Source: Janthinobacterium sp. UMAB-56
GTDB lineage: Bacteria; Pseudomonadota; Gammaproteobacteria; Burkholderiales; Burkholderiaceae_D
Direction: 5' to 3'
Length of the DNA: 64,000 nt
NCBI RefSeq assembly: GCF_900095265.1
Contig: NZ_LT607653.1
Span: forward strand, 62,001-126,000
The notes under the pieces were generated by a model, which saw nothing but the letters and a program-made list of their open reading frames with translations, made no database searches and was not told the origin of the DNA. Position numbers and translations under genes: made by a program. This document shows, one piece after another, positions 48,972 through 64,000 of this stretch. Positions within the stretch are counted from its first letter, which is position 1; each line of letters starts with the position of its first letter.

Positions 48972-51218
48972 ATGAGCTGGTTTTCGGCCTCCCCCCCTTC
49001 GCAGCGCTGGGCTTTCGCCATCAGCGCGCTCGTTGCCGCCACGGCGGTGCCTGTCCACGCCCAGAAAGCACCGCGTCCGGTTCATGTGGAAGATCCCGAC
49101 GCGCCCACCGTCATGACGGCGAACAGCATGAACGGACGCCCGGAAAGGGAGATCAATCTCGAGCAAAATGTCGTGATTGAGCGGGGAAAAACCACAAAAA
49201 TGACCGCTGATACAGCTTGTTACAAACAAGTTGAAGATGAGTTCGATGCCGAGGGCCATATCAAGATGTGGCGTTTCGGCGATTACTACACGGGTGACGT
49301 CTTGAAGCTGAACATGGAGACCGGCAAGGGTTTCCTGCTCAACCCGACGTACCGCTTCGAAGTGGGTGGCGGCCAGGGCAAGGCCGAGCGCGTCGACTTC
49401 ATCAACCCCGACGAAGCCAATGTCATCGAAGGTACTTACAGTACCTGCGAAGGGCCGAATCCGGACTGGTACCTGAAATCGAGCACATTGAACCTCGATA
49501 CGGGCCGCGACGTGGGCACCGGCAGCAAGACCATCATCTATTTCAAGGACGTGCCTATCCTGGGTACGCCAGGCATCTCGTTTTCGCTGTCGGGTGCGCG
49601 CCGCTCGGGCTGGCTGGCGCCCACGCCGGGCTTTGCCTCGAAGAACGGTTTCGAGCTGCTGATGCCGTATTACCTGAACATCGCGCCGAACCGCGACCTG
49701 ACCCTGTTCCCGCGCTACATACAGCGGCGCGGCATCCAGCTCGGTGCGACGGGCCGCTACATGGGCGAGACGGATGCCGGCCTGTACCAGGGCGAAACGT
49801 CGTTTGAGTTCTTGCCTAACGACAAGCAGACCAAGACCAACCGCTACATGATCAAGTCCAAGCATGAGCAGGCGCTGGCCAAGGGCTGGAGTTACAGCTG
49901 GGACTTGCGCGACGCATCGGACAATAATTACCCGAACGATTTTTCGAAAACCGTCGCCACCGCCACCGAACGCCAGTTGCTGCGCGAATTGCGCACCGAT
50001 TACCGCACCGAGGACTGGAGCCTGACGGCGCGCGTGCAGAATTACCAGGTACTGCAGGATCCCGATCCTTCGGTGACCGTGCCGCGCCCGTATGACCGCT
50101 TGCCGGCGGTGAACTTCCACGCTGGCAAATACGACGTATGGGGCGGCTTCGACTGGACCTTCGACGCGGAAGCGACGCGCTTCGCGCATCCGACCGAGGT
50201 ACAAGGGTCGCGCCTGGTGGTCGTGCCGCAGGTGAGTTTCCCCATCGTGCGTCCTGGTTATTTCATCACGCCCAAGCTGATGCTCAATGCCAGCGCGTAT
50301 CAACTGGATAATGACGCCAGGACCAAGGCGCTGCTGTTCAAGACGACCTCGTTTACGCGCGCCGTGCCTACCTTCTCGCTCGACAGCGGCCTGGTGTTTG
50401 AACGCGACACGAATCTGTTTGGCGCCAAGGGCGGCACGCAAACCCTGGAGCCGCGCCTGTTCTATGTCTACACGCCGTACCGCGACCAGTCGCAGTTTCC
50501 GAAATTCGATACGGCCGACGGCACCTTCAACCTGACGCAGATCTTCACGGAAAACCGTTTTGTCGGCAGCGACCGCATCGGCGATGCCAACCAGGTCACG
50601 GCCGCCGTCGTCTCGCGCTTTCTGCAGGCGGACGGCACGGAGCGTATGCGCCTGACCTTCGGCCAGCGTTTCTATTTTGCCGACCAGCGCGTGCAACTCA
50701 ATTCAACCACGCCCGTCAACCAGTCGCGTTCGGATATCCTGCTGGCGGCAACGGGCCGCGTGTCCGAGACTTGGACCGCCGACAGCCTGGTGCAGTACAA
50801 TCCCAGCGATCGCCAGTTGATAAACTACAACTACACCCTGCAATATCAGCCAGGTGCCAAGAAAGTATTGAATTTCAGCAATCGTTTCCAACGTGGGGAT
50901 AATGGTTGGCGCAATGCTGAAGTGTCGACGCAATGGCCGCTGACGGACCGTTTGTATGGCGTGGGCCGTATCAGTTACTCCCTGAAGAATCGCAGCATGC
51001 TGGAAAGCCTGGTCGGCCTGGAATACAAGGGCGATTGCTGGGTGTTCCGCATGGGAGCGCAGCGTTTCGTGACGACGGCCAAGACAGTTTCGACGCCGAT
51101 CTTCTTCCAGCTGGAATTGACGGGCTTGTCGAACGGCCTGGGGCTGGGCGCGAATGGCCTGGAAACTTTTACAAAAACCATCCCTGGTTACCAGACAGTG
51201 AGCCAGCCACTCCGTTAA
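48972..51218 (+). CDS. lptD: LPS-assembly outer-membrane protein LptD
   Basis: A 748-residue outer-membrane barrel that puts lipopolysaccharide into the outer leaflet together with LptE. A signal peptide (about 1-30, ending VHA) is followed by the LptA-like jellyroll domain (about 45-200) and the large C-terminal barrel. Only three Cys remain: one in DTACYKQ, one in YSTCEG and one in KGDCWVF; the last two correspond to the E. coli pair 173-725 that must be joined for function. First gene of lptD-surA-pdxA-rsmA. Confidence 0.95.
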   Translation: MSWFSASPPSQRWAFAISALVAATAVPVHAQKAPRPVHVEDPDAPTVMTANSMNGRPEREINLEQNVVIERGKTTKMTADTACYKQVEDEFDAEGHIKMWRFGDYYTGDVLKLNMETGKGFLLNPTYRFEVGGGQGKAERVDFINPDEANVIEGTYSTCEGPNPDWYLKSSTLNLDTGRDVGTGSKTIIYFKDVPILGTPGISFSLSGARRSGWLAPTPGFASKNGFELLMPYYLNIAPNRDLTLFPRYIQRRGIQLGATGRYMGETDAGLYQGETSFEFLPNDKQTKTNRYMIKSKHEQALAKGWSYSWDLRDASDNNYPNDFSKTVATATERQLLRELRTDYRTEDWSLTARVQNYQVLQDPDPSVTVPRPYDRLPAVNFHAGKYDVWGGFDWTFDAEATRFAHPTEVQGSRLVVVPQVSFPIVRPGYFITPKLMLNASAYQLDNDARTKALLFKTTSFTRAVPTFSLDSGLVFERDTNLFGAKGGTQTLEPRLFYVYTPYRDQSQFPKFDTADGTFNLTQIFTENRFVGSDRIGDANQVTAAVVSRFLQADGTERMRLTFGQRFYFADQRVQLNSTTPVNQSRSDILLAATGRVSETWTADSLVQYNPSDRQLINYNYTLQYQPGAKKVLNFSNRFQRGDNGWRNAEVSTQWPLTDRLYGVGRISYSLKNRSMLESLVGLEYKGDCWVFRMGAQRFVTTAKTVSTPIFFQLELTGLSNGLGLGANGLETFTKTIPGYQTVSQPLR

Positions 51219-51288
51219 GATAGGCACCGTTGCCGCCGCCGGTGTTTCCGGCGCTGGCACAAACCGGTTTTTTTATTCACCTGAACTC

Positions 51289-52716
51289 ATGAGCGCTCTA
51301 CACATTATGCGTAATGCCAGTATGCACCAACTCAAAATTGCAACGGTTTTGTTGTGCGCCATTTCCGGCGCCACGACCAGTAGTGTCTGGGCGCAACAGG
51401 CTGCGCCAGCTCCTGCGGCCAAGCCCGCTGCTACTGCGCCAGCACCGGTCAAGGGCTTCACGCCACCGGCTTCGAGCAGTGGCCAGACCATCGACTCCAT
51501 CGCCGTCGTCGTCAATGACGAGGTGATTACGCGTAATGAAGTTGCGGCCCGCATCAAGAGCGTGGAGCAGCGCATGAAGGCGCAGAACGTGCCCTTGCCC
51601 GATCCTGCCGACCTGCGTCGTCAGTTGCTGGAGCGCATGATTGTGGAGCGCGCACAAATGCAGCTGGCCAAGGAAATGGGCGTGCGCGTGGATGACCTGA
51701 CGCTGGACCGCGCGATTGGCCGTATCGCTGAACAGCAAAAAATGACGGTGCAAGAACTGCGTAACCAGATGGAAAAAGAAGGCACGCCGTTTGCGACCTT
51801 CCGCGAAGAAATCCGCGATGAAATCATCATGCAGCGCCTGCGCGAGCATGAGGTCGACGCCAAGATCCAGATTTCCGATTCCGAAGTGGATAACTTCCTG
51901 GAAGCGGAAAAAGCGGCTGCCAGCGAACAGGTGGAGCTGAACCTGGCGCAAATTCTCGTGCGTATTCCGGAAAATTCCAGTCCCGAACAGATCGCCGCGC
52001 GCCGCGCACGCGCCGAAGAAGTCAGCCGCCAGCTGCGCACGGGCGCCGATTTCGCCAAGATGGCCGCCACCTATTCCGACGCCAGCGATGCGCTGAGCGG
52101 CGGCGATATCGGCTGGCGCAATAGCGACCGCGTGCCGCCCCTGTTCACGGAACAGTTGCTGAAACTGAAACCGGGCCAGATCACCCCTATCATCAAGAGC
52201 AACACCGGTTTCCACATCCTCAAACTGGTGGACCGCCGCAGCGCGGCTGAGGCGCAAGCCGTCGCTGCCGTGCAGCAGACGCATGCCCGCCATATCTTGC
52301 TGAAAATAACGCCGACCCTGTCGGCTGCCGAAGCCAAGCGCAAATTGCTGGAATTGAAAGAGCGTCTCGATAACAAGGCCGCCAAGTTCGAAGACCTGGC
52401 CCGCTTGTTCTCGAACGACGGTTCGGCGGCCAAGGGCGGCGACCTGGGCTGGCTGTATCCAGGCGACACCGTGCCGGAATTCGAAACGGCGATGAATGCG
52501 CTGAAACCGGGCGAAGTGAGCCAGCCGATCGAATCGAGCTTTGGCTTTCACCTGATCGAAGTGCTGGAGCGCAAGAGCGACGACGTCTCGAAAGAGAAAA
52601 AGCGCGCCGCCGCACGCAACGCCTTGCGCGAACGCAAGCTGGAAGAAGCGACTGAAAACTGGGCGCGCGAAGTACGCGACCGTGCTTACGTCGAATTCCG
52701 CGCGGACGACCAGTAA
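51289..52716 (+). CDS. surA: Periplasmic chaperone / peptidyl-prolyl isomerase SurA
   Basis: A 475-residue periplasmic protein that escorts outer-membrane proteins to the BAM complex. After a signal peptide and an Ala/Pro-rich linker (to about residue 65) comes the SurA N-terminal domain ([15 protein letters not shown]), then two parvulin domains (about 215-325 with [16 protein letters not shown], and about 335-440 with [16 protein letters not shown]). Three in-frame ATGs (51289, 51307, 51322) are possible starts; the signal peptide fits the later ones as well. Confidence 0.94.
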
Positions 52717-52735
52717 TGCTGCTGATTCATTGCGC

Positions 52736-53785
52736 ATGAGTAACTTGCCCCTTGCAGGCCGCCCGGCCATCGCCATCACTTGTGGCGAACCGGCCGGTGT
52801 CGGCCCGGAAATTTCGATCCGCGCCGCCTGGGCCATGCGGCATGAGGTCACAGTCATCCTGCTGGGTGACGCCGCCTTCCTGGCACTGACGGCCAGCCTG
52901 ATCGATCCGGACATCCGCCTGGCGGCGCTGTCGCTGCAAGCCGTGCGCAACAGCGGCCTGCCCCAGTTCGGACCCGGTCGCCTGGCCGTGATCGACATTC
53001 CGACCGTGAACAATGTCATCCCTGGCGTGCTGGACAAGGAAAATGCCCGTTCCGTGCTGGCGACCCTGGACGCGGCCGTGGAAGGCATCGAAGCCGGCTG
53101 GTTTGGCGCCATGGTCACGGCACCCTTGCAAAAGAGCACGATCAACGACGCAGGCGTGGCTTTTTCCGGGCATACGGAATACCTGGCAGAAAAAACCGGC
53201 ACGCCGCAGGTGGTGATGATGCTGGCCGGCGAACCGGGACATGGCGAACCGACCCTGCGCGTGGCACTGGCCACCACGCATCTGCCATTGAAGGACGTGT
53301 CCGCTGCCATCACCATGGACAGCCTGGCCGTCACCCTGGATATTCTCCAGCGAGATTTGCAACAGAAATTCGGCATCGCCGCGCCGCGCATCCTCGTGAC
53401 TGGCCTGAACCCGCACGCGGGCGAGGGCGGCTACCTGGGACGCGAGGAAATCGATGTCATCGCCCCGGCGATTGCGGCGGCGCAAGCGCGCGGCATCGAT
53501 GCGCGCGGCCCGTACCCAGCCGACACCTTGTTCCAGCACAAGTATCTGGCCGATGCCGACTGCGTGCTGGCGATGTACCACGACCAGGGCTTGCCCGTGC
53601 TGAAATACGCGACCTTCGGGCGCGGCATCAATATCACCCTGGGCTTGCCGCTGATCCGCACCTCGGTCGACCACGGCACGGCGCTGGACCTGGCCGCGCA
53701 AGGGCTGGGCCTGGCCGATTGCCACAGCATGGAGCAGGCGCTGCAAACGGCGCTCGGCATGCTGCGCGCCAGCACGCGCGCCTGA
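52736..53785 (+). CDS. pdxA: 4-hydroxythreonine-4-phosphate dehydrogenase
   Basis: A 349-residue enzyme of pyridoxal-phosphate synthesis. It starts [17 protein letters not shown] and has the metal-binding His residues in [10 protein letters not shown] and [12 protein letters not shown]. It begins 19 bases after surA; an upstream extension of 18 residues inside surA is possible but lacks support. The neighbours surA and rsmA are the same as in E. coli. Confidence 0.96.
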
Positions 53786-53836
53786 TACCCACCGGTTTTA
53801 CCCCGCTACACCGCCCCTAGAATAGAAAAACAGAAT

Positions 53837-54616
53837 ATGAAACACGTTGCCCGCAAACGCTTTGGCCAGAACTTCCTGCATGACCGCTTCGTCCTGGACG
53901 ACATCACGGCCGCCATCGCGCCGCAGGCGGACGATGCCATGGTCGAGATCGGCCCCGGCCTGGGCGCCATGACGGAGCAGTTGCTGCGCCACCTGAAGCA
54001 GATGCATGTGGTTGAACTGGATCGCGACCTGATCGTGCGCCTGGAAAAGACCTTCAACCCTGCCAAGCTGACGATACACTCGGGCGACGCGCTGAAATTC
54101 GATTTTGCGCAAATTCCCGTGCCGGCCGGCCAGAAGCTGCGCATCGTGGGCAACTTGCCGTACAACATTTCCAGCCCGCTGCTGTTCCACCTGGCAGACT
54201 TCGCGCCGTTGGTGAAAGACCAGCATTTCATGCTGCAAAAGGAAGTCGTCGAGCGCATGGTGGCCGAACCGGGCAGCAAGGCGTATGGCCGCCTGTCCGT
54301 GATGCTGCAATGGCGCTATACCATGTCGCTGCTGTTCATCGTGCCGCCGACGGCCTTCGATCCGCCGCCGAAAGTGGAATCGGCCATCGTGCGCATGATC
54401 CCCGTGGCCGAGCGCCTGGCGTGCGACCAGGCGACCCTGGAAGCGGTGGTCATGAAAGCCTTCTCGCAGCGCCGCAAGGTGATCCGCAACTGCCTGGCAG
54501 GGATGTTTACGGAAGAGCAGATCAAGGCGGCCGGCATCGACCCGACCAAGCGGCCGGAAACCGTGGGGCTGGAGCAATACGTGGCGCTGGCGAATCTGCT
54601 CAAAGCACCGCAGTAA
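53837..54616 (+). CDS. rsmA: 16S rRNA dimethyladenosine transferase
   Basis: A 259-residue SAM-dependent enzyme that dimethylates A1518 and A1519 of 16S rRNA. The start [10 protein letters not shown], the SAM motif [14 protein letters not shown] and the catalytic NLPYNIS are all present. Last gene of the lptD-surA-pdxA-rsmA series, 51 bases after pdxA. Confidence 0.97.
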
Positions 54617-54626
54617 TCGCAAGGGC

Positions 54627-54690
54627 TGGGGGCAGACCCTCTCCACCAGCAGCGTCTGAGCAGGCGTCGACGCGAACGGGGGGCTGACCC
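54627..54690. repeat. GGGGCAGACC / GGGGCTGACCCC motif pair
   Basis: Behind rsmA the DNA reads GGGGGCAGACCCT and, about 40 bases on, GGGGGGCTGACCCCC. Both resemble the GGGTCAG/CTGACCC arms of the element at 24.45 kb. It lies between convergent genes and may be a decayed copy of the same kind of repeat or a terminator structure. Confidence 0.3.
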
Positions 54691-54708
54691 CCGCATTGCT
54701 GGTTTGAC

Positions 54709-55626
54709 TTAAAACCACTGGTCGACCTGCTGCAGATCCTGCCTCAGGGCGGAAAAGCAGTCGTCCACATGGTGGTTGCGGCTGATTTCATTGCGCCGCA
54801 TCAGGGCGATCTTGCGCTTGCAGGTGGGCTGGCGCAGGGGCGCCACGTGCAGGTCTTCGTCGTTGAGGAAAGTCGTGTACAGGCTGGGCATGATGCCCAC
54901 GGCGATGCCGGCGCGCACCACGCCATACAGCGACTCGCTGTGTATCATCTGGTACAGGCTCGACGGGCTCAAGCCATGCTGGCGCAGTGCGCTGGAAGCA
55001 AATTCCCAGATGCTGCCCTTGGTAAACACGACGATTTCCTGCCCCGCCAGCTGCTCCCAGCGCACTTCCTTGAGCGGCGCCAGCGCATGGCGTCCCGCCG
55101 TCACCAGCACCAACTCGTCCTCGAACAGTCCCACGCTTTCCAGCGACACGGAACCGGGCACCTCGATACCCACGCAAAAGTCCAGCTGGCCCGAATGCAG
55201 GGCGTGCAGCAAGCCATCGTTGGGCATGTCCGACAGGACGATTTCCACTTCATCGCCATGCTGCTCGCAGTAGCGCGCCACCACCACGGCCGTCATCGCC
55301 ATGGCCGAGGGGATGGCGCCGATGCGGATGCGGTGCCTGCCGCTGCCGATGGCGCGCTGGATATCGGCAAAGGTATTGCTCGCCGTATTCAATAAATGCG
55401 TGGCGTAATCGAGCGCCAGCTTGCCTTCGCGTGTCAGTTCTAGCTGGTGGGTTGTGCGGTTAAACAACTTTTTTCCCAGCTGATTTTCCAGCAGCTTGAT
55501 CGATGCGCTGAGGGCCGGCTGAGTCACGCACAATTCCTGTGCAGCCTTGCTGAAGCTGTTTACCCGGGCCAGGGTGGCAAACGCTTGTAAATGTCGTAAG
55601 GAAATCTTCTTGCTGAGTTCATGCAT
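54709..55626 (-). CDS. LysR family regulator, divergent from the porin-ABC-nucleoside operon
   Basis: A 305-residue regulator. Residues about 9-68 hold the winged helix-turn-helix (FATLARVNSFSKAAQELCVTQPALSASIKLLE); the rest is the co-inducer domain (FCVGIEVPG, LVLVTAGRHAL, GIAVGIMPSL). It is encoded back to back with the operon at 55.85-62.8 kb, the usual arrangement for a LysR activator and its target. The co-inducer is unknown and may be the transported compound. Confidence 0.92.
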   Translation of the reverse strand: MHELSKKISLRHLQAFATLARVNSFSKAAQELCVTQPALSASIKLLENQLGKKLFNRTTHQLELTREGKLALDYATHLLNTASNTFADIQRAIGSGRHRIRIGAIPSAMAMTAVVVARYCEQHGDEVEIVLSDMPNDGLLHALHSGQLDFCVGIEVPGSVSLESVGLFEDELVLVTAGRHALAPLKEVRWEQLAGQEIVVFTKGSIWEFASSALRQHGLSPSSLYQMIHSESLYGVVRAGIAVGIMPSLYTTFLNDEDLHVAPLRQPTCKRKIALMRRNEISRNHHVDDCFSALRQDLQQVDQWF

Positions 55627-55637
55627 GGGCTTTGCTT

Positions 55638-55652
55638 ATTAGAAAAAGTAAT
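55638..55652. promoter_or_regulatory. Candidate LysR binding dyad
   Basis: ATTA-N7-TAAT is a small inverted repeat of the T-N11-A type, 12 bases before the LysR start and 200 bases before the porin. It could be an autoregulatory site. Confidence 0.3.
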
Positions 55653-55852
55653 GGATTTATAAAAATAAACAAATTTTCTTATCCCGCAATTTACCATATT
55701 CTGGACTGGTCTTTACTTGCATTGAAGGCAACAATCTTCAAGAGAAGAGCCTGGAATGCGGTGCTGCTACTCGCGGCGGCGCGCCAGGCAAGGGACACAT
55801 CAATAAAATAATTCCAAAAAAACTCAGGGTTTACTCTTTTAGGGCGGCGGCG
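55653..55852 (+). promoter_or_regulatory. Divergent promoter region, LysR / porin
   Basis: About 200 bases, AT-rich near the LysR gene, with no credible gene. It should carry the promoters of both directions. The short frame 55691-56128 (minus) runs antisense into the porin gene and is rejected. Confidence 0.5.
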
Positions 55853-56968
55853 ATGAATAAATGGATGACTGGAACGATGATGGTGGGTGGCTTGCTGGCG
55901 GCGCAGGGCGCGGCGCAGGCGCAAAGCAGCGTGCAAGTGTATGGCTTGCTGTCGGCCGGTTTCGGCTATGTGTCGGATGAGGGTAACGGCAGCCGCACGC
56001 ATGCGTTGAGCGGCACGAACCAGAATCCGCGCATCGGTTTTCGCGGCCAGGAAGACCTGGGCAACGGCACCAAGGCGATCTTCGTGCTGGAAAACGGTTT
56101 TAACGTGATGACGGGCACGGCCTCGCAAAGCGGCCGTCTGTTCGGCCGCCAGTCGTATGTGGGTTTATCCAGCAACGACAAGGGCACCCTGACCCTGGGG
56201 CGCCAGTATGAAGCCGTCAAGGACCTGCTGGGCCCGGTGGTCATCGCCAGTAACGGCGTGCACATCGGCGACAACGACAATGGCTATAACAACTTGCGCG
56301 TGCAAAACGCCGTCAAGTATGTCAGCCCGAGCATCAGCAATCTGTCGTTCACGGGCTTGTATGGCTTCAGCGAAAATCCGCAAGACGCCAACCGCAACCG
56401 CGTCTACAGCATGGGTGCAGGCTATAAAGTCGATGCCTTCAGCTGGGCCGTCGCCTATACCAAGATGGACCACCCGAATAGCCCCGATGCGCCGAATGGC
56501 GCCATCGGCAACGACTATGGCAGCTCCCTGTTGCTCTTCAACAAGAGCGCCGTCAGCGGCGCCGGCGTGAACAGCCAGGCCATCGCCGGCACGGGAGGCT
56601 TTTATAATGTGGGCAAGACCAAGTTTGGCGCGCTGTACACCAACGTGCGCTACCACTACTTGGATCAAAGCAGTCTGACCTTGCAAAACGTGGATCTGAA
56701 CGTGAACCACAAGCTGACGGAAGCGTTGAACCTGGGCGCCTCGTATTTCTTTACCACCGGCAAATATGACGTGATCAACAAGACGCCGAAATGGCATCAG
56801 GTCAACTTCCAGGCCGATTACTTCCTGTCCAAGCGCACCGACGTCGCCATCACCTGGAGCTACCAGAAAGCGGCCGGTGATGCGACGTTCGCCCGCGTGT
56901 TCGGTTTTGGTGCCTCGGGCGGCAAGACGCAAAGCGTCCTGATCGTCGGCATGCGACATTATTTCTGA
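55853..56968 (+). CDS. Gram-negative general porin (Burkholderiales type)
   Basis: A 371-residue outer-membrane beta-barrel. Signal peptide about residues 1-23 (ending AQA), then SSVQVYGLLSAGFGYVSDE, the typical first strand, PRIGFRGQEDLGNG, the conserved LFGRQSYVGLSSNDKGTLTLGRQ, and a C-terminal Phe in GMRHYF. Such trimeric porins let small hydrophilic solutes through. It is the first gene on the operon side, about 60 bases before the binding-protein gene, and may serve as outer-membrane entry for the same solute. Confidence 0.93.
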   Translation: MNKWMTGTMMVGGLLAAQGAAQAQSSVQVYGLLSAGFGYVSDEGNGSRTHALSGTNQNPRIGFRGQEDLGNGTKAIFVLENGFNVMTGTASQSGRLFGRQSYVGLSSNDKGTLTLGRQYEAVKDLLGPVVIASNGVHIGDNDNGYNNLRVQNAVKYVSPSISNLSFTGLYGFSENPQDANRNRVYSMGAGYKVDAFSWAVAYTKMDHPNSPDAPNGAIGNDYGSSLLLFNKSAVSGAGVNSQAIAGTGGFYNVGKTKFGALYTNVRYHYLDQSSLTLQNVDLNVNHKLTEALNLGASYFFTTGKYDVINKTPKWHQVNFQADYFLSKRTDVAITWSYQKAAGDATFARVFGFGASGGKTQSVLIVGMRHYF

Positions 56969-57025
56969 GTCTGATTCATCTTTACAGGCGCTGTTTTGCA
57001 GCGCCGTTCCCTGAAAGGAAGCATC

Positions 57026-58048
57026 TTGAAAAAGCACCTCATGTTGGCGTTGAGCCTAGGCTTGCTGGCTAACGCCGCCCACGCGGAAAAACGCGAGCTG
57101 GTCATTTCGGCCTATCCGATTGCCCAGCCCTTGTTCATGAAGTATGTGTATGAGCCGTTCAAGGCCAAATGCGGATGCGATATCAAGGTGGAAACGGGGA
57201 ATAACGCGGACCGCATCGCCAAGCTGGTGGTGCACAGCAAGAACCCGGTGATCGACCTGGTGCTGCTGTCCGATTCCGGCATGCTGGAAGCGGCGCAAAA
57301 GGGCGTCATCCAGCCCATGGATTACTCCAAGCTGAGCAATTACAAAGCCCTGTATGACGTGGCGAAAAACCCCATCGGCGGCAACTACGCCGTCGGCTAC
57401 ACCCTGTACTCGGTGGGCCTGGTATACCGCAGCGACAAGATCGCCCCGCTGACGTCGTGGAAAGACCTGTGGCGCCCTGAACTGAAGGGCCGCGTCGCCT
57501 TCCCCGACGTGAGCACCACGCAGGGCCCCTTGATGCTGCGCATGGCCGATGCGGCCTGGGGCGGCAAGACGGATGACTACGCCGCCGGCTTTGCCAAGAT
57601 CGTCGGCATGAAGGGCAACGTCGTCACGTTCTCGAAGAACAGCGCGCAGCTGGCAGCCCTGTTCGCGCAAGATGAAATCTGGGCCGCGCCCGTGGCGCGT
57701 TTCACCTGGTCGCAAATGCTCAAGACGGGTCTGCCCCTGAAATGGAGCATCCCGGCCGAAGGCCAGGCGGCCGGCATGAACGTGATGGGCATCGTTGCAG
57801 GTTCGAAGAATGCTGACCTGGCGTATCAGTTGATGGATTTCTGGCTGTCCAAGGAAGTGCAGACGCAGCTGGCGACCAATCTGGTCGACTCGCCCGTCAA
57901 CAAGGACGTGCGCCTGTCGGTCGCCGCCGCGCAATTCAATACCTATGGTGCCGACCAGATCAGCTCGCTGAAATTCGTCAAGCCGGAAACCATCATCAAG
58001 CAGCGCAGCAACTGGATGACGCAGTGGAACAAGGCCATGAGCAAATAG
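57026..58048 (+). CDS. ABC transporter substrate-binding protein (PotD/AfuA-like)
   Basis: A 340-residue periplasmic solute-binding protein with a signal peptide (1-20, ending AHA). The fold is that of the PotD/Fe3+/thiamine group (cluster D). AAAGGAA precedes a TTG at 57026; starting there gives MKKHLMLALSLGLL, a normal signal peptide, whereas the ATG at 57041 would shorten it. The motif SWKDLWRPELKGRVAFPDV is typical. Two Cys (KCGCD) occur near residue 50. The ligand is unknown; the enzymes downstream suggest a nucleoside-like compound. Confidence 0.9.
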   Translation: MKKHLMLALSLGLLANAAHAEKRELVISAYPIAQPLFMKYVYEPFKAKCGCDIKVETGNNADRIAKLVVHSKNPVIDLVLLSDSGMLEAAQKGVIQPMDYSKLSNYKALYDVAKNPIGGNYAVGYTLYSVGLVYRSDKIAPLTSWKDLWRPELKGRVAFPDVSTTQGPLMLRMADAAWGGKTDDYAAGFAKIVGMKGNVVTFSKNSAQLAALFAQDEIWAAPVARFTWSQMLKTGLPLKWSIPAEGQAAGMNVMGIVAGSKNADLAYQLMDFWLSKEVQTQLATNLVDSPVNKDVRLSVAAAQFNTYGADQISSLKFVKPETIIKQRSNWMTQWNKAMSK

Positions 58049-58069
58049 CGGTGACGAGGAGAGAACACC

Positions 58070-58909
58070 ATGTTTGCTGATCCAAAAAAGCGCCTGGGAC
58101 TGCTGCTGGTCCTGCCGGCGCTGATCTTTATCGTCGTCTGCTTCCTGCTGCCCGTGCTGGCCTTGCTGGTCGACGCCTTCCGCGTCGGCGACGGCATGCA
58201 GTGGGGCTTTGACCGCTTCATTGAATTCTTCTCGCAGGAATTCAACCGCACCATCTTCTGGCGCACCCTGCGTATCGCCGCGCTGGTGACGCTGGCGTCG
58301 ATCATCCTCGGCTACCCGGCCGCGCAAGCCGTGGCGCGCGTGTCGCCGAAGTGGCGCGGCCTGGTGGTGGGCATGATGATCTTGCCGCTGATGGTCTCGC
58401 CGATTGCGCGCACCTATGCCTGGATCGTGCTGCTGGGTCGCAATGGCGCCGTCAACGCGGCGCTGGTCAACATGGGCTTGACGGAAGAGCCGCTGCGTTT
58501 GCTGTTCAGCGAGTTCGCCGTGTTTGTGGGCCTGCTGCAATTGCTGCTGCCGCTGATGCTGATGTCGCTGGCGGGGGCGCTGGAAAACCTGCCGCGCGAC
58601 GTGGAACCGGCTGCCGCCACCCTGGGCGCCAACCCCTGGCAAGTGTTTTGCAAGGTCACCCTGCCGCTGACGCAGGAAGGCCTGGTGGTCGGCGGCACGC
58701 TCGTATTTACGGGCTGCGTGACGGCCTATGTCACGCCGGCCCTGTTGGGCGGCACCAAGGTGCTGATGCTGGAAACCCTGCTGTACCAGAAGGTCAGCGT
58801 GGAGAGCGATTTCGGCGCAGCGAATGTGATCGCCGTCATCCTCGTCTGCATGACTCTGCTGGTCAATGCCGGCCTTAAACGTATTTCCTCGAGCCGGAGT
58901 TCCGTATGA
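58070..58909 (+). CDS. ABC transporter permease (PotB-like)
   Basis: A 279-residue inner-membrane permease with six hydrophobic segments. The EAA loop reads EPAAATLGANPWQVFCKVTLPL, which docks the ATPase. It starts 21 bases after the binding-protein gene and ends in an ATGA overlap with the second permease. Confidence 0.93.
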   Translation: MFADPKKRLGLLLVLPALIFIVVCFLLPVLALLVDAFRVGDGMQWGFDRFIEFFSQEFNRTIFWRTLRIAALVTLASIILGYPAAQAVARVSPKWRGLVVGMMILPLMVSPIARTYAWIVLLGRNGAVNAALVNMGLTEEPLRLLFSEFAVFVGLLQLLLPLMLMSLAGALENLPRDVEPAAATLGANPWQVFCKVTLPLTQEGLVVGGTLVFTGCVTAYVTPALLGGTKVLMLETLLYQKVSVESDFGAANVIAVILVCMTLLVNAGLKRISSSRSSV

Positions 58910-59685
58910 AAGAAAGCTTGTTCTCGCGCGCCGTCCTGTGGCTGGTGTTTTTGTTCCTGCTTGGGCCTTTTGCCATCGTCGTGCTGGCCGGCTTTAGCGG
59001 CGGTGAAACGCTGGCCTTCCCGCCCGAATCGTACTCGCTGCGCTGGATACTCGAAGTGTGGTCTGCGCCCGAGTTCCGCCGCGCCTTCCAGACCAGCCTG
59101 GAGATCGGCCTGATCGCCACCGTCATCGCGCTGTTGCTGGGCATTCCCGTCGCCTATGCATTTTCGCGCATGCCGCCGCCTGGCATCGGCGCCATCCGCC
59201 AGATCCTGACGTCGCCGCTGATCATCCCCGCCATCCTGGTGGGTTTGGGCTTGCTGCATCACCTGGTCCTGACCATCAACGCGCCCGTCTACGTGGGCCT
59301 GTTGATCGGCCATATCGCGCTCTTGATCCCGTATTCGGTGCGCGTGGTGTACGCCAGCCTGGTGAACCTGCGCGTGGATATCGAGGATGCCGCCATCACC
59401 CTGGGCGCGTCGCGCCTGCGCGCGTTCTTCATGATCGTGCTGCCGAATATCCGCAACGCCGTGATCGCCGCTTTCTTCCTGGCCTTCGTCACCTCGTTCA
59501 ACCAGGTGCCCGTCTCGCTGTTCCTGACGGGCCCTGGCATCAGCACCTTGCCGATCGAGATGCTGGGACATATGGAAAACAGTTTCGATCCATCGATCGC
59601 TGCCCTGTCGACCTTGCTGGTCTTGTTCACCATGGCCTTCGTGATGGTGACCGAGAAGGTGCTGGGCATTTCTAAATACATGTAA
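58906..59685 (+). CDS. ABC transporter permease (PotC-like)
   Basis: A 259-residue permease with six hydrophobic segments and the EAA loop EDAAITLGASRLRAFFMIVLP. It forms the heterodimeric channel with the preceding permease. Start overlaps the previous stop by four bases. Confidence 0.93.
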   Translation: MKESLFSRAVLWLVFLFLLGPFAIVVLAGFSGGETLAFPPESYSLRWILEVWSAPEFRRAFQTSLEIGLIATVIALLLGIPVAYAFSRMPPPGIGAIRQILTSPLIIPAILVGLGLLHHLVLTINAPVYVGLLIGHIALLIPYSVRVVYASLVNLRVDIEDAAITLGASRLRAFFMIVLPNIRNAVIAAFFLAFVTSFNQVPVSLFLTGPGISTLPIEMLGHMENSFDPSIAALSTLLVLFTMAFVMVTEKVLGISKYM

Positions 59686-59698
59686 GAGGCAACACACC

Positions 59699-60730
59699 AT
59701 GAGTTATCTGGAACTGCACAAGCTGAATCTCGGCTACGCCAAGAATACGACGTCCGTGAAAGACCTGGACTTGCACGTCGAGCAGGGTGAACTGATTTCC
59801 CTGCTTGGCCCCAGCGGCTGCGGCAAGACCACCACCATGCGCGCCATCGCCGGCCTGATGCCGCTGCAGTCGGGCCGCATCGTTTTGGATGGCCGCGAAA
59901 TCGGCAAGCTGGCGCCGAACAAGCGCAATATCGGCATGGTGTTCCAGTCGTACGCGCTGTTCCCGCACTTGAATGTGTACGACAACATCGCCTTCGGCCT
60001 GCGCCTGCGCAAGGTCGCGCCGGCCCTGCTGAAAACGAAGGTGGAAGCCGTGATCGCCGCCGTCGGGCTGACGGGTTTCGAGACGCGTTTGCCGGCACAG
60101 ATGTCGGGTGGCCAGCAACAGCGCGTGGCGCTGGCGCGCGCCATCGTCGTCGAGCCGGCCCTGCTGCTGCTCGATGAACCGCTGTCGAACCTGGACGCCA
60201 AGCTGCGCGTGCAGATGCGCGCCGAGCTGCGCCGCATCCAGCGCGAACTGGGCATCACCATGCTGTACGTGACGCATGACCAGGAGGAGGCGCTGGCTTT
60301 GTCCGACCGCATCGTCGTCATGAACAGCGGCCGCATCGAGCAACTGGCCGCGCCGGAAGCCGTCTTCAATACGCCGTCAACGCGTTTTGTGGCCAACTTC
60401 ATGGGCTTTGAAAATCTGTTCGACTACCGCGACGGCGCCTTGCACCACGCGGGCGCCAGCTTGCCGTACACGGCGCCGGTGGCTTCCGGCACGACGGTGC
60501 TGGGCTGGCGTCCGGACAAGGTGCGTGTCTGCGCGCAGGATGACGCAGCAGGCCAATACCCGGGCAGCGTGCTGGCACGGGGCTTCCTGGGTGACACCGT
60601 CGAGTACCTGCTGCAAACGCCGCTGGGCCAGGTCAAGGGCATCTGCGCGGCCGGTGGCGCCGCCTGGCGCGAAGGCACGGCCGTGTCCTTCGTGCTGCCA
60701 TCCGACAGCGCCCTGTGTTTGGCTGCTTAG
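59699..60730 (+). CDS. ABC transporter ATPase (PotA-like)
   Basis: A 343-residue ATPase: Walker A GPSGCGKTTT, Q-loop VFQSYALFPH, signature MSGGQQQRVALARA, Walker B LLLLDEPLSNLD and switch His in YVTHDQEEA. After residue 235 a TOBE-type regulatory domain follows, as in PotA and other MOI-type importers. The last codons and stop lie in an 11-bp tandem repeat. Confidence 0.95.
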   Translation: MSYLELHKLNLGYAKNTTSVKDLDLHVEQGELISLLGPSGCGKTTTMRAIAGLMPLQSGRIVLDGREIGKLAPNKRNIGMVFQSYALFPHLNVYDNIAFGLRLRKVAPALLKTKVEAVIAAVGLTGFETRLPAQMSGGQQQRVALARAIVVEPALLLLDEPLSNLDAKLRVQMRAELRRIQRELGITMLYVTHDQEEALALSDRIVVMNSGRIEQLAAPEAVFNTPSTRFVANFMGFENLFDYRDGALHHAGASLPYTAPVASGTTVLGWRPDKVRVCAQDDAAGQYPGSVLARGFLGDTVEYLLQTPLGQVKGICAAGGAAWREGTAVSFVLPSDSALCLAA

Positions 60731-60760
60731 TGGCTGCTTAATGGCTGCTTAGTGGCTGCC
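60720..60760. repeat. 11-bp tandem repeat across the ABC ATPase stop codon
   Basis: TGGCTGCTTAG/A occurs three times in a row (60720, 60731, 60742) and once partly (60753-60760). The first copy contains the end of the ATPase gene with its TAG stop. It looks like replication slippage. Confidence 0.85.
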
Positions 60761-60782
60761 TGACTTTCTATTGGAGAGCATC

Positions 60783-61727
60783 ATGACCCTGGCCTTGAAA
60801 AAAATCTGGCTCGATACCGATCCCGGCTTCGACGACTGGCTGACGATGCTGCTCTTGGGCAGCAATCCCGATATCGAGTGGCTGGGCGTGAGCGTGGTGG
60901 CGGGCAACGCGCCCGTCGATATCACCTACGACAATGCCTTGCGCATCAAGGCGCATGATGGCTTGAAGGTGCCGATCTACCGCGGCTGCGACGCGCCGCT
61001 GGCGGGCGTCATCGAGACGGCGCAGCGCATCCTCGGCGACAGTGGCATGCCGACCACGGGCGAGGTACTGCCGCCAGGCGCCGCCGTTGACGCGGCCGGC
61101 CACGCCGTCGATGCACTGATCGCCGCCGTGCGCGCCCATCCCGGCCAGATCACCATCATGGCGATTGCGCCGATGACGAATCTGGCCACGGCCTTGGCTC
61201 GTGCGCCCGATATCGCCGAAAAAATCGTCGAGATCATCCTGATGGGCGGCTCGACCGACCAGGGCAACCACACGGCGGCGGCCGAATTCAATATCTACGC
61301 CGACCCGGAAGCGGCCGCCCAGGTCTTCAAGTCCGGCATCCCGCTGCGCATGTTCGGCTTGAACCTGTGCCGCCAGCTGCTTGTGACGAACGTCGAAGTG
61401 CAGCAGTTGCGCGCCATCGGCACGCCGCGCGCGCAGCGGCTGGCCGGCTACCTGGAAGCGTACGTGCGCATCCGCAGTGCCGACGGTTCCGTGCCCATGC
61501 CCATGTATGACCCGGTGGTGGCGCTGTACCTGGAAGCGCCGCAGCTGTTCCAGTTTCAGCCGGCCCACGTGGCCATCGAATTGACGGGCGAACTGACGCG
61601 CGGCATGACGGTGTGCGAGTTCCGCGTGCCGCGTCGCGCGCCGATCAACACTCAGGTGGCGATGCTGGCCGATGGCCCGGCCGCCATCGAGCGCCTGATG
61701 CGCCGCCTGGCCGGCATTCTCGTCTGA
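60783..61727 (+). CDS. Nucleoside hydrolase (IUNH family), atypical active site
   Basis: A 314-residue N-glycosidase that would split a nucleoside into base and sugar. The calcium-binding DTDPGFDDW motif is at residues 11-19, and AEFNIYADPEAA holds the substrate-binding Glu168/Asn170. The C-terminal motif, HDP in the Crithidia enzyme, reads MYDPV: Tyr242 stands where the active-site His is expected, with the calcium Asp243 kept. GGAGAG precedes the ATG. The position directly after the ABC transporter genes suggests it acts on the imported compound. The altered His suggests specificity other than that of common inosine-uridine hydrolases. Confidence 0.9.
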   Translation: MTLALKKIWLDTDPGFDDWLTMLLLGSNPDIEWLGVSVVAGNAPVDITYDNALRIKAHDGLKVPIYRGCDAPLAGVIETAQRILGDSGMPTTGEVLPPGAAVDAAGHAVDALIAAVRAHPGQITIMAIAPMTNLATALARAPDIAEKIVEIILMGGSTDQGNHTAAAEFNIYADPEAAAQVFKSGIPLRMFGLNLCRQLLVTNVEVQQLRAIGTPRAQRLAGYLEAYVRIRSADGSVPMPMYDPVVALYLEAPQLFQFQPAHVAIELTGELTRGMTVCEFRVPRRAPINTQVAMLADGPAAIERLMRRLAGILV

Positions 61728-61752
61728 CCCACTACACTACGAAACGAGTTTC

Positions 61753-62808
61753 ATGTCAAATTCACCGCTGAGCATCGAACAGTTTTTACGCGCCATGCCG
61801 AAAGTGGAGCTGCATTGCCACTTGTTTGGCACGGTGCGCCAGGCTACTTTCCGGGCGCTGGCCGCCAAGACGGGCAATGTCGTCACTGCCGAAGAAATCG
61901 ACGCGTTCTATACGCGCGGCGACAAGCCTGTCGGCGTGCTGCGCGTGCTGCGCGCGCTCGACGCGCACCTGATCGTCACGCCCACGGACCTGTATTGCCT
62001 GACGTATGAATACCTGGAAGACGTGCATGGCCATGGCGTGCGCTATGCGGAGTTCTTCTGGAACCCGACTGGCACGGTGCGCGTGTCTGGCATCCGCTAT
62101 GACTCCGCGCAGGACGCCATCGTGGCCGCCATCCGCGACGCGCAGCGCGATTTCGGCGTGATCGGCCGCTTGATCCCCAGCATCGACCGCGAAGCGAGTC
62201 CCGCCGAAGCCGTGCAGATGGTGGAATGGATGAAGGCCTACCGCGCGCCGGAAGTCATCGGCATCGGCATCGACTACCGCGAAAACGACCGTCCGCCGGA
62301 ACTGTTCATCGAAGCCTACCGCGCCGCGCGCGAGGCAGGCTTCAAATGCACGGCGCATGCGGGAGAATTCGGCATGCCGTGGATGAATGTGGCGACGGCG
62401 ATAGACGTCTTGCAGGTCGACCGCGTCGATCATGGCTACACCATCGTCGACAATCCGGAACTGGCGCAGCGCTGCGTGGAGCGGGGCCTGGTGTTTACCG
62501 TGGTGCCGACCAATTCCTACTATCTGCGCACCCTGGCGCCCGAACGCTGGGCGCTCGACCACCCGATCCGCGCCATGGCCAAGCTGGGATTGAAACTGCA
62601 TCCGAACACGGACGACCCGACCCTGCACCACGTGACGCCGACGGGCGCCTGGATGATGATGCGCGAATTCGGTTTCGGCTTCGATGACATGCGCGGCTTC
62701 ATGTTGAATGGTCTCGATGCGGCCTGGATAGCCGAGTCCACGCGGCGCGACTGGCGCGCGCAATTTACGCGCACATTCGACGCGCTGCGCGCAAGAGTCG
62801 TCGAGTAA
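61753..62808 (+). CDS. Adenosine-deaminase-like amidohydrolase, atypical substrate site
   Basis: A 351-residue TIM-barrel hydrolase of the ADA family. Metal and catalytic residues are complete: His21 and His23, His202 and Glu205 in HAGE, His227 in DHGY, and Asp287-Asp288 in NTDDP. But the motif HxHLDG of adenosine deaminases, whose Asp contacts the ribose, reads HCHLFG with Phe25, and the DLAGDE loop is replaced by IDYRENDRPP. It should still deaminate something, though probably not adenosine itself. It is the last gene of the operon, 25 bases after the nucleoside hydrolase. Confidence 0.88.
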   Translation: MSNSPLSIEQFLRAMPKVELHCHLFGTVRQATFRALAAKTGNVVTAEEIDAFYTRGDKPVGVLRVLRALDAHLIVTPTDLYCLTYEYLEDVHGHGVRYAEFFWNPTGTVRVSGIRYDSAQDAIVAAIRDAQRDFGVIGRLIPSIDREASPAEAVQMVEWMKAYRAPEVIGIGIDYRENDRPPELFIEAYRAAREAGFKCTAHAGEFGMPWMNVATAIDVLQVDRVDHGYTIVDNPELAQRCVERGLVFTVVPTNSYYLRTLAPERWALDHPIRAMAKLGLKLHPNTDDPTLHHVTPTGAWMMMREFGFGFDDMRGFMLNGLDAAWIAESTRRDWRAQFTRTFDALRARVVE

Positions 62809-62809
62809 A

Positions 62810-64000
62810 TCAGGCGGACGCTGGTGGCGGCGCCAGCAGCGAAGGAAATGCCCGCTGCGGGCAAGCCTGGCGCTCGCACACCTTGCAGCCCGTGCCGATC
62901 GGCGTGGCGCTGGAGGGATCGTGCAAATCGAGTCCCTTCGAATAAATCAGCCGGTGCGCCTGCGAAATATCGCAGCCCAGCGCCACGGCAAAGGTCTTGC
63001 CGGGCGCCCGGAAACCCGGCGAGGCCGTGCTGACCTGGCGCGCGATCCACAGATACGTGCAGCCGTCCGGCATGCTGGCCACTTGCGTGAGCACCTGGCC
63101 CGGATGGCTGAAGGCGTCGTAGACGATCCACAGCGGACACGTGCCGCCCACCCTTGAAAAGTGAAAGTCCGTGGCCGACTGGCGCTTCGACACATTGCCG
63201 GCCCGGTCCACGCGTACAAAGAAAAACGGCAAACCCGCCGCCTCGGGGCGCTGCATGGTGCTCAGGCGGTGGCACACGGCTTCGAACCCCACGCCGAACT
63301 GGTGCGCCAGGCGTTCGATATCGTAGGCGCGCGTTTCCGCCGCCTGCAAGAAGCGCTGATACGGCATCAACAGGGCGCCGGCAAAATAATTGGAAAATGC
63401 CAGGCGCGCGCCCGTTTGCGCGGCCGCGCCGGAGAGTCCCGCCGCCAGCACCAGGGCGTCGATCAGGTCGCTGTGTTCGAGCAGGCTGATTTGCGCCGCC
63501 ATCTGGAAGGCGCGCTGGCCGCCTGTCAGGGTGTCGGGCAGCCACAGTATCTGTTGCTGGGCATCGTAGCGGTGTTTGCGCACCATGCCCGCGTCGCCAT
63601 CGGACAAGCGCACCTGGATGCCGTGGCGCTCAAGCAGGCGCCCCTGCAAGGCTTCGAGCGTGCGCAGTTGCGGGTCAAGTTCGCCCGCCACCAGCTCTGC
63701 TGCTCTATCCAGCTCATCGATGTAGTTTTGCCGCCGGTTCAGGTATTCGCGCACTTCCTCGTCCGTGGAAGGGGCCGCCGAACTGGCGCCGCGACTGCCG
63801 TCATCGAGGCGCGCGGCCAGGGTATCGGCCCGCTCAGCCATCACCCGGTAGCGCCGCTGCAGCAGCAGGATCGAGCGGGCCAGTTCCGGCATGTTTGCCA
63901 CCAGCATTTTGAGTTCGGCCATCGAGGTGGGCGGCGCGTCGGGCAATTCGCCGAACACGTCGCGCACGTCGGCTACCAGGCTGGCGCTGTCGTGTTCGGA
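62810..64000 (-). CDS. ScfR-type transcriptional regulator (C-terminal part)
   Basis: The frame continues past the window edge, so the N-terminus, where an XRE helix-turn-helix is expected, is not seen. The visible 397 residues include an ImmA/IrrE-like region (QISLLEHSDLIDALVLAAGL, then ARLAFSNYFAGALLMPY) and a DUF2083 domain ending with a Cys-rich CKVCERQACPQR. This is the layout of short-chain fatty acyl regulators (ScfR, RamB/PccR-like), which sense acyl-CoA and control acetate or propionate use. Usual HExxH is not seen. Its stop is one base from the stop of the deaminase-like gene. Confidence 0.78.
   Translation of the reverse strand, partial: SEHDSASLVADVRDVFGELPDAPPTSMAELKMLVANMPELARSILLLQRRYRVMAERADTLAARLDDGSRGASSAAPSTDEEVREYLNRRQNYIDELDRAAELVAGELDPQLRTLEALQGRLLERHGIQVRLSDGDAGMVRKHRYDAQQQILWLPDTLTGGQRAFQMAAQISLLEHSDLIDALVLAAGLSGAAAQTGARLAFSNYFAGALLMPYQRFLQAAETRAYDIERLAHQFGVGFEAVCHRLSTMQRPEAAGLPFFFVRVDRAGNVSKRQSATDFHFSRVGGTCPLWIVYDAFSHPGQVLTQVASMPDGCTYLWIARQVSTASPGFRAPGKTFAVALGCDISQAHRLIYSKGLDLHDPSSATPIGTGCKVCERQACPQRAFPSLLAPPPASA

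Follow-up and report, generated by a model that had tools for sequence, protein, structure and literature searches.

An operon in Janthinobacterium predicted to use an adenine nucleoside, and the exchangeable parts of its relatives

Described systems that resemble individual parts of the operon considered here, a run of eight genes in 64,000 nucleotides of Janthinobacterium sp. UMAB-56 (contig NZ_LT607653.1, positions 62,001 to 126,000; hereafter the window), include polyamine importers, nucleoside hydrolases (NHs), and deaminases of two families. The ATP-binding cassette (ABC) importer of the operon shares its architecture and permease type with PotABCD, but its solute-binding protein (SBP) is a member of a group associated with nucleoside enzymes and does not have the acidic residues that bind polyamines. 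The NH has the family membership, Asp fingerprint, and AEFN motif of group I NHs (Crithidia IU-NH, 1mas; E. coli RihA, RihB, and RihC), but carries Leu in the beta3-alpha3 loop and Tyr before the last Ca-binding Asp where group I enzymes have His. The adenosine deaminase (ADA)-like enzyme belongs to the same subfamily as 4gxw, a Burkholderia ambifaria COG1816 amidohydrolase (EFI-505188) with no function in its PDB title, which our literature search turned up in a structural survey; its relatives in Burkholderia are found next to an NCS2 permease and an NH of a different lineage rather than an ABC importer. The enzyme also shares its fold with PA0148-type deaminases (3ou8, identical in sequence to 3pao), which we take to be adenine deaminases, but is only 28% identical to 3ou8, falls on a separate branch, and has Phe or Leu in its type at the ADA Asp19 position, where Glu occurs in 30/30 PA0148-type rows. 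Patl2390, a cytokinin deaminase of COG1816 group 3, likewise takes amines off adenine-type bases (a comparison made at the COG level only); it differs in that the accessible text reports it to act on N6-methyl- and N6,N6-dimethyladenine and to be unable to use adenine or adenosine (PMC13296781). A close relative of the adenine deaminase Atu4426 (3nqb) fills the same slot, with the same kind of transporter and NH neighbors, on Sinorhizobium pSymB and is predicted to catalyze the same reaction, adenine to hypoxanthine; Atu4426 itself is described as deaminating unmethylated adenine (PMC12133300). Both belong, however, to COG1001, whereas the window enzyme is a COG1816 ADA-fold protein, and no COG1001 match was detected in G000 at E 1e-20.

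We propose, with moderate confidence and from comparative evidence, that the operon serves the use of an adenine nucleoside, most likely adenosine. The porin would provide outer-membrane passage, the SBP would capture the nucleoside, and the ABC importer would carry it inward. The NH would then split it into adenine and ribose, and the ADA-like enzyme, which is without the ribose-binding Asp and keeps its zinc and catalytic residues, would convert adenine to hypoxanthine and ammonia. Xanthine dehydrogenase and ribokinase of the host may process hypoxanthine and ribose further: XdhB (1282 bits, cut-off 849.5) and ribokinase (340.6 bits, cut-off 299.65) were both identified in the genome, so that both products are probably usable. 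The NH is the single one in the genome at E 0.001. The reading rests on the exchange with an Atu4426-type enzyme, on an AdeP/AdeQ-like partner permease, and on the loss of the ribose-binding Asp, all of which fit plain adenine. All eight genes reported in an earlier note on this DNA are present in one run at the coordinates given there, each with Pfam scores far over the cut-off (LysR, porin, SBP, two BPD_transp_1, ATPase plus TOBE, IU_nuc_hydro, and A_deaminase), and their content and order support its description of a self-contained operon for uptake and breakdown.

The strongest pointer to the base is an exchange of deaminases: in an equivalent gene context, one is replaced by a member of a different family. 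Screening of 398 Pseudomonadota genomes for the SBP yielded 12 matches at E 1e-30, the host included. Six of these SBP relatives (43–48% identity), all from classes other than that of the host, were encoded in the order SBP, permease, permease, ATPase, NH, and COG1001 adenine deaminase (6/6). Among plasmids, 101 records contained an SBP relative at E 1e-30 and ten were examined. NH and adenine deaminase genes were present in 7/7 loci with an SBP 42–48% identical, hosted by Sinorhizobium, Deinococcus, Thalassospira, Haematobacter, Shinella, Roseateles (a record marked unverified), and Loktanella, and a plasmid of Lactiplantibacillus, where the SBP is 30% identical, also encoded both. Collectively, 14 of the loci examined outside of Janthinobacterium, Duganella, and Herbaspirillum had an SBP at least 42% identical; NH was encoded in 14/14 and a COG1001 adenine deaminase in 13/14 (L116, L117, L135–L140, and L223–L227), the remaining locus (L085, SBP 48%) encoding NH and a deaminase of the window type. 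The same cassette is present in the window as a single series of genes, for the SBP, both permeases, the ATPase, the NH, and a deaminase of the adenine type, in an order equal to that of the COG1001 loci but with the last slot filled by a different deaminase family. The Sinorhizobium cassette deaminase matched 3nqb with 955 bits. A second COG1001 protein (35–38% identical) was encoded in 6/6 searched genomes that carry the COG1001 cassette, so that having a second, dedicated deaminase is the usual state and by itself no sign of another substrate. The earlier note had considered the union of a PotABCD-type importer with nucleoside enzymes unusual, which is not borne out given that the pairing recurs; it had also named a lack of enzymes beside the transporter in other genomes as evidence against its proposal, and conservation was found instead.

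The architecture of the deaminase is consistent with a base as substrate. A structure model built from 16 sequences adopts the ADA fold (predicted local distance difference test, pLDDT, 90.9), and its top solved matches in Foldseek were 4gxw, followed by 3rys (titled adenine deaminase) and 3ou8, and then by adenosine deaminases; the match to 4gxw amounted to 509 bits by sequence and 64% identity in the Foldseek alignment. In mouse ADA, zinc binding and catalysis depend on His15, His17, His214, Glu217, His238, Asp295, and Asp296, while Asp19 binds the ribose hydroxyls. Alignment to 2ada indicated that the zinc and catalytic set is retained, and His21, His23, His202, Glu205, His227, Asp287, and Asp288 were invariant in the 16 aligned deaminases. 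Asp19, in contrast, corresponds to Phe25 in the window enzyme, and none of the 84 deaminase rows compared had Asp at this position (Leu in 45, Phe in 38, and Tyr in 1). Loss of the ribose-binding Asp fits a base deaminase, although it does not tell adenine from N6-substituted adenine. The score against the NCBIfam adenosine deaminase model TIGR01430 was 207.8 bits, below the cut-off of 216.55. The host encodes a second COG1816 deaminase of the PA0148 type (396 bits to 3ou8), and a second COG1816 gene with the H-x-H-I-E-G motif was present in 5/5 Burkholderiales genomes that hold a member at least 61% identical to the window enzyme. In a quick tree of 54 COG1816 rows, from which a motif filter had left out the Salmonella L118 and Photobacterium L121 deaminases, the window type formed a branch of 23 rows (SH-aLRT 98) that was separate from the 30 rows carrying H-x-H-[IL]-E-G.

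Homologs of the deaminase were identified in 62 of 250 Burkholderiales genomes at E 1e-10, and five of these genomes, the host included, encoded a member at least 61% identical; the next-best matches were only 24–34% identical. Relatives at 94–97% identity were from Janthinobacterium. Broad occurrence in Gammaproteobacteria beyond Burkholderiales was rejected, with matches at E 1e-45 in 2/369 genomes (the host and one more member of the Burkholderiales). Neighborhoods were scored in 83 distinct loci, comprising the best 80 of at least 558 candidate stretches with a deaminase relative in a species-level contig collection, such that counts describe the closest relatives, and three others (a fourth was dropped as a duplicate). 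L033 and L086 are the same locus and were both kept in the NH and deaminase alignments (59 and 84 rows, respectively), whereas the neighborhood count uses L086 only. For 65 of the 83 loci, the flanks reached 6.5 kb or more on the upstream side and 4.5 kb or more on the downstream side, and partners were counted within 6.5 kb of the deaminase at tblastn score limits that we set.

Three types of transporter gene accounted for the neighborhoods of 61 of the 65 loci, with none of them within range in the remaining four. The complete set of ABC importer, NH, LysR, and porin adjoined the deaminase in 12/65 loci (Janthinobacterium, Duganella, Herbaspirillum, and one further genome); the recurrence shows that this set is no chance assembly, and the conserved gene partners support the earlier note in this respect. 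An NCS2 permease gene (representative PF00860) replaced the ABC importer in 24/65 loci, at most 202 bases from the deaminase match in 23/24 (Burkholderia-type), and 22 of the 24 also encoded NH, LysR, and porin. The porin gene accordingly recurs in the 12 ABC and in 22/24 NCS2 versions. A gene for a TctC-type SBP (representative PF03401) was present in 25/65 loci, with one match per locus at most 180 bases from the deaminase match in 25/25, and NH accompanied it in 5/25. A LysR homolog occurred within 6.5 kb in 56/65 loci. Six NCS2 proteins, four from deaminase loci and two from plasmid loci, had E. coli AdeQ or AdeP as best match, then GhxQ, and did not match XanQ, XanP, or UacT at E 1e-3. 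In Comamonadaceae-type loci (e.g., L050, L054, and L101), the ADA-like gene adjoins the TctC-type gene, 20 of the 25 TctC-type loci being without NH within 6.5 kb, which suggests that a free base is imported by a tripartite tricarboxylate-type system there. Upstream of the NH-deaminase pair in L090 (8294–8980, PF00300) and in L091 is a histidine phosphatase-family gene, perhaps for entry of a nucleotide into the pathway. Three plasmid records from Salmonella carry a 41% identical ADA-like gene (L118, 7980–9098), which in the single record examined has genes for an amidohydrolase, an asparaginase, and a transporter of the DcuC type as neighbors.

The window NH belongs to PF01156 and has the Asp fingerprint DTDPGFDD. 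Positions His82 and His241 of the Crithidia enzyme correspond to Leu84 and Tyr242, respectively. In the accessible parts of two sources, NHs are grouped by their leaving-group residue, which is His (I), Trp (II), or Cys (III), and mention is made of non-standard enzymes that do not have His241 (PMC10526354, PMC8910321). By that scheme, as far as these parts describe it, Tyr at the His241 position would place the window NH outside of groups I, II, and III. Among 59 NH rows from operons, the His241 position was Tyr in 56, His in two (L111 and L117), and Phe in one (L135), and six further operon NHs had Tyr (5) or Phe (1). In 37 background rows, other NH genes of Pseudomonadota, the residue was His in 33, Ala in three, Phe in one, and Tyr in none, and E. 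coli RihA, RihB, and RihC have His (3/3). At the loop (His82) position, operon rows had His (28), Leu (29), or Met (2), while background and E. coli rows had His (39) or Ala (1). This comparison excludes seven highly divergent background rows (one each from L167, L171, and L172 and two each from L170 and L173), which have Trp or Phe and in no case Tyr, together with L164_0, an operon gene that was in the count before, the truncated L049 (Tyr), and L168, which yielded no hydrolase frame. One background clade (L191, L194, and L196) had Ala at the His241 position and kept the loop His. In a plant NH, Tyr249, which may or may not align with Tyr242, reportedly favors purine ribosides.

Phylogenetic reconstruction from 84 thinned NH rows placed the ABC-linked NHs in one clade (support 100/100) and the NCS2- and TctC-linked NHs in another (98/95), nested among His enzymes of which the closest are about 50–57% identical to L110. 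The Lactiplantibacillus NH grouped with RihC on long branches. These sequence relationships suggest two or three separate changes to Tyr in operon NHs, a history that the tree favors but does not prove: the approximately unbiased (AU) test did not reject a topology with all 59 operon NH rows in one clade (p 0.072), and an independent-pairs test on the Tyr change had two or three pairs only and hence no power.

Alternatives to an adenine nucleoside operon concern either the transporter or the exact substrate. That the importer handles polyamines and merely happens to adjoin two nucleoside enzymes is hardly credible, even though the nearest NCBIfam permease models are PotB and PotC. The SBP scored 60.6 bits against the curated PotD cut-off of 582, and Asp168, Glu171, and Asp257 of PotD, which we take to be the residues that coordinate the polyamine ligand, align with Val162, Thr165, and Asn252. 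The absence of PotD-type acids agrees with an earlier judgment that polyamine import is unlikely, and the transporter accompanies NH and adenine deaminase in other bacteria; residues, cut-offs, and gene partners together led us to reject a polyamine importer. Fourteen SBP rows, ten of them from the 13 COG1001 cassettes and the others from the window, L032, L044, and L085, have the motifs GN[NS]-x-[DE]-R, QG[PG], and DSPxN in common. DSPxN and QG are missing from the outgroup rows L141, L142, and L146, and each of the distant SBPs L220–L222 is without at least one of the three motifs. A structure model of the SBP from eight sequences was poor (pLDDT 55.5), and our literature search found no paper joining 4edp, its closest solved sequence, with an ABC transporter.

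It is unlikely, on balance, that the operon imports and breaks down N6-modified adenosines (N6-methyladenosine or cytokinin ribosides), from which the NH would free an N6-substituted adenine and the ADA-like enzyme would release the amine. The host already has a PA0148-type deaminase, a type that uses plain adenine, the hydrophobic residue at the Asp19 position could accommodate a bulky group, and a few host names (Root411, Root318D1, ginsengisoli) hint, by name alone, at plant or soil origin. Patl2390, also of COG1816, is reported to act in this way on N6-methylated adenines (PMC13296781). However, an Atu4426-type enzyme, described in the accessible text as one for unmethylated adenine (PMC12133300), fills the slot in other bacteria, the partner permease is AdeP/AdeQ-like, and 3rys and 3ou8 are nearest by Foldseek after 4gxw. 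It is quite improbable that the same logic applies to another adenine riboside (2'-deoxyadenosine, 5'-deoxyadenosine, or 5'-methylthioadenosine) or to a purine analogue, with the sugar or ring changed. Gene content constrains the base more tightly than the sugar, and a Pseudomonas NH has been postulated to act in 5'-methylthioadenosine recycling, as far as the available portion of the source conveys (PMC8910321), but no kinase for methylthioribose or deoxyribose was annotated in eight annotated cassette loci, and the host genome encodes ribokinase. The changes at substrate-contacting positions seen in the earlier note are real (ADA Asp19 to Phe25; NH His82 to Leu84 and His241 to Tyr242), yet the modified or unusual compound that it read from them is so far not supported, since the Atu4426-type exchange, the AdeP/AdeQ-like permease, and the Asp loss fit plain adenine, a modified adenosine being possible.

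Several observations weigh against our proposal that the operon serves an adenine nucleoside. Six loci with SBPs of 29–31% identity, from five genomes plus a second locus in one of the six cassette genomes, showed neither enzyme (BLAST, E 1e-6); a Neorhizobium locus (L222, SBP 36%) was also without both, and an Agrobacterium vitis plasmid locus (L221, SBP 35%) encoded adenine deaminase without NH. In the latter (L221, 10720–14188), a gene annotated as N-carbamoyl-D-amino-acid hydrolase sits where NH would, before the adenine deaminase. NH was detected within 6.5 kb in only 40 of the 65 loci, and its scarcity in TctC-type loci (5/25) suggests that the deaminase may serve an imported base in many Comamonadaceae. 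The PA0148-type enzyme makes a second adenine deaminase in the host look redundant, 3/59 operon NH rows and 1/6 of the later ones are without Tyr, and several nucleosides could yield adenine.

The features of the operon are listed in Table 1.

Table 1. Features of the predicted adenine nucleoside operon (window positions).
Feature	Coordinates	Strand	Support
LysR-family regulator, divergent	54709..55626	-	PF03466, PF00126
Candidate LysR operator, AT-rich block within LysR-porin gap	55657..55682	+	Conservation, genome uniqueness
Gram-negative porin, predicted outer-membrane entry	55853..56968	+	PF13609, 155 bits
Periplasmic SBP, TTG start	57026..58048	+	PF13416; closest solved sequence 4edp
ABC permease 1, PotB-like	58070..58909	+	PF00528; best NCBIfam PotB 151 bits, cut-off 348
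ABC permease 2, PotC-like, 4-base overlap with permease 1	58906..59685	+	PF00528; NCBIfam PotC 110 bits, cut-off 326
ABC ATPase with TOBE domain	59699..60730	+	PF00005, PF08402
NH, Leu/Tyr replacing group I His82/His241	60783..61727	+	PF01156, 264.9 bits vs. cut-off 34.2
ADA-like (COG1816) deaminase, 4gxw subfamily, predicted adenine deaminase	61753..62808	+	PF00962, 176.1 bits vs. cut-off 27

Spacing among the seven forward-strand genes ranges from -4 to 57 bases, and apart from the SBP all genes start with ATG. Control of the operon probably lies with the neighboring LysR protein, acting at the candidate operator, a role suggested by the sequence of the intergenic region: the AT-rich block was conserved in eight aligned intergenic regions, the window included (Janthinobacterium, Herbaspirillum, Duganella, and a further relative), and, with as many as three mismatches allowed, matched the 6.1 Mb genome only at this place, a reversed-pattern control giving no match. 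Control by a riboswitch was rejected, as neither window positions 50000–64000 nor any of seven related loci had an Rfam match that reached the gathering score. A promoter scan yielded no sigma-70-like sites (1.9 expected), and terminator-like sites (15 vs. 6.3 expected) were scattered over coding DNA on both strands and were not used. Directly upstream, frames at 48972–54616 were read from their translations as lptD, surA, pdxA, and ksgA, and seven Janthinobacterium loci (L037–L041, L043, and L065) have a ksgA match ahead of the operon. Converging on the operon from one base past its end is a RamB/ScfR-type regulator gene (62810–63967, reverse strand; PF09856 and an IrrE/M78-like domain); such a gene adjoins the deaminase only in Janthinobacterium among 84 loci compared, which suggests that it is probably unrelated to the operon.

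A description of this operon was not found in our literature search, whose coverage was without most subscription papers, and this is hence a weak sign of novelty. The operon follows the ordinary logic of purine catabolism; uncommon are the hydrolyze-then-deaminate route, the importer type, the interchangeable parts, and the Tyr hydrolases. Taken together, it is conceivable, although we hold this only tentatively, that these loci represent a widespread, undescribed adenine nucleoside system with interchangeable parts. Transport would fall to a Pot-like ABC importer, an AdeP-like NCS2 permease, or a TctC-type SBP, deamination to either of two unrelated enzymes, and hydrolysis to NHs of two or three lineages. 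In this tentative scheme, the NHs would have swapped the catalytic group I His241 for Tyr each time they joined, so that Tyr there would mark a fourth catalytic class with selectivity for adenine nucleosides, and the Pot-like ABC transporters would form a nucleoside importer family across Pseudomonadota, Deinococcota, and Bacillota (the last at 30% SBP identity).

The analysis gives testable functions to the orphan structure subfamily of 4gxw, to NHs beyond the His/Trp/Cys scheme, and to a Pot-like branch of ABC importers for which annotation can give the wrong name: four of 60 listed SBP relatives were labeled as polyamine or spermidine/putrescine importers, and the one of these four that was examined, L222, was without the enzymes. 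If the NH is selective for adenosine, the Tyr242 position would be the residue to probe for base selectivity, and hydrolysis before deamination would constitute a dedicated bacterial route for adenine nucleosides.

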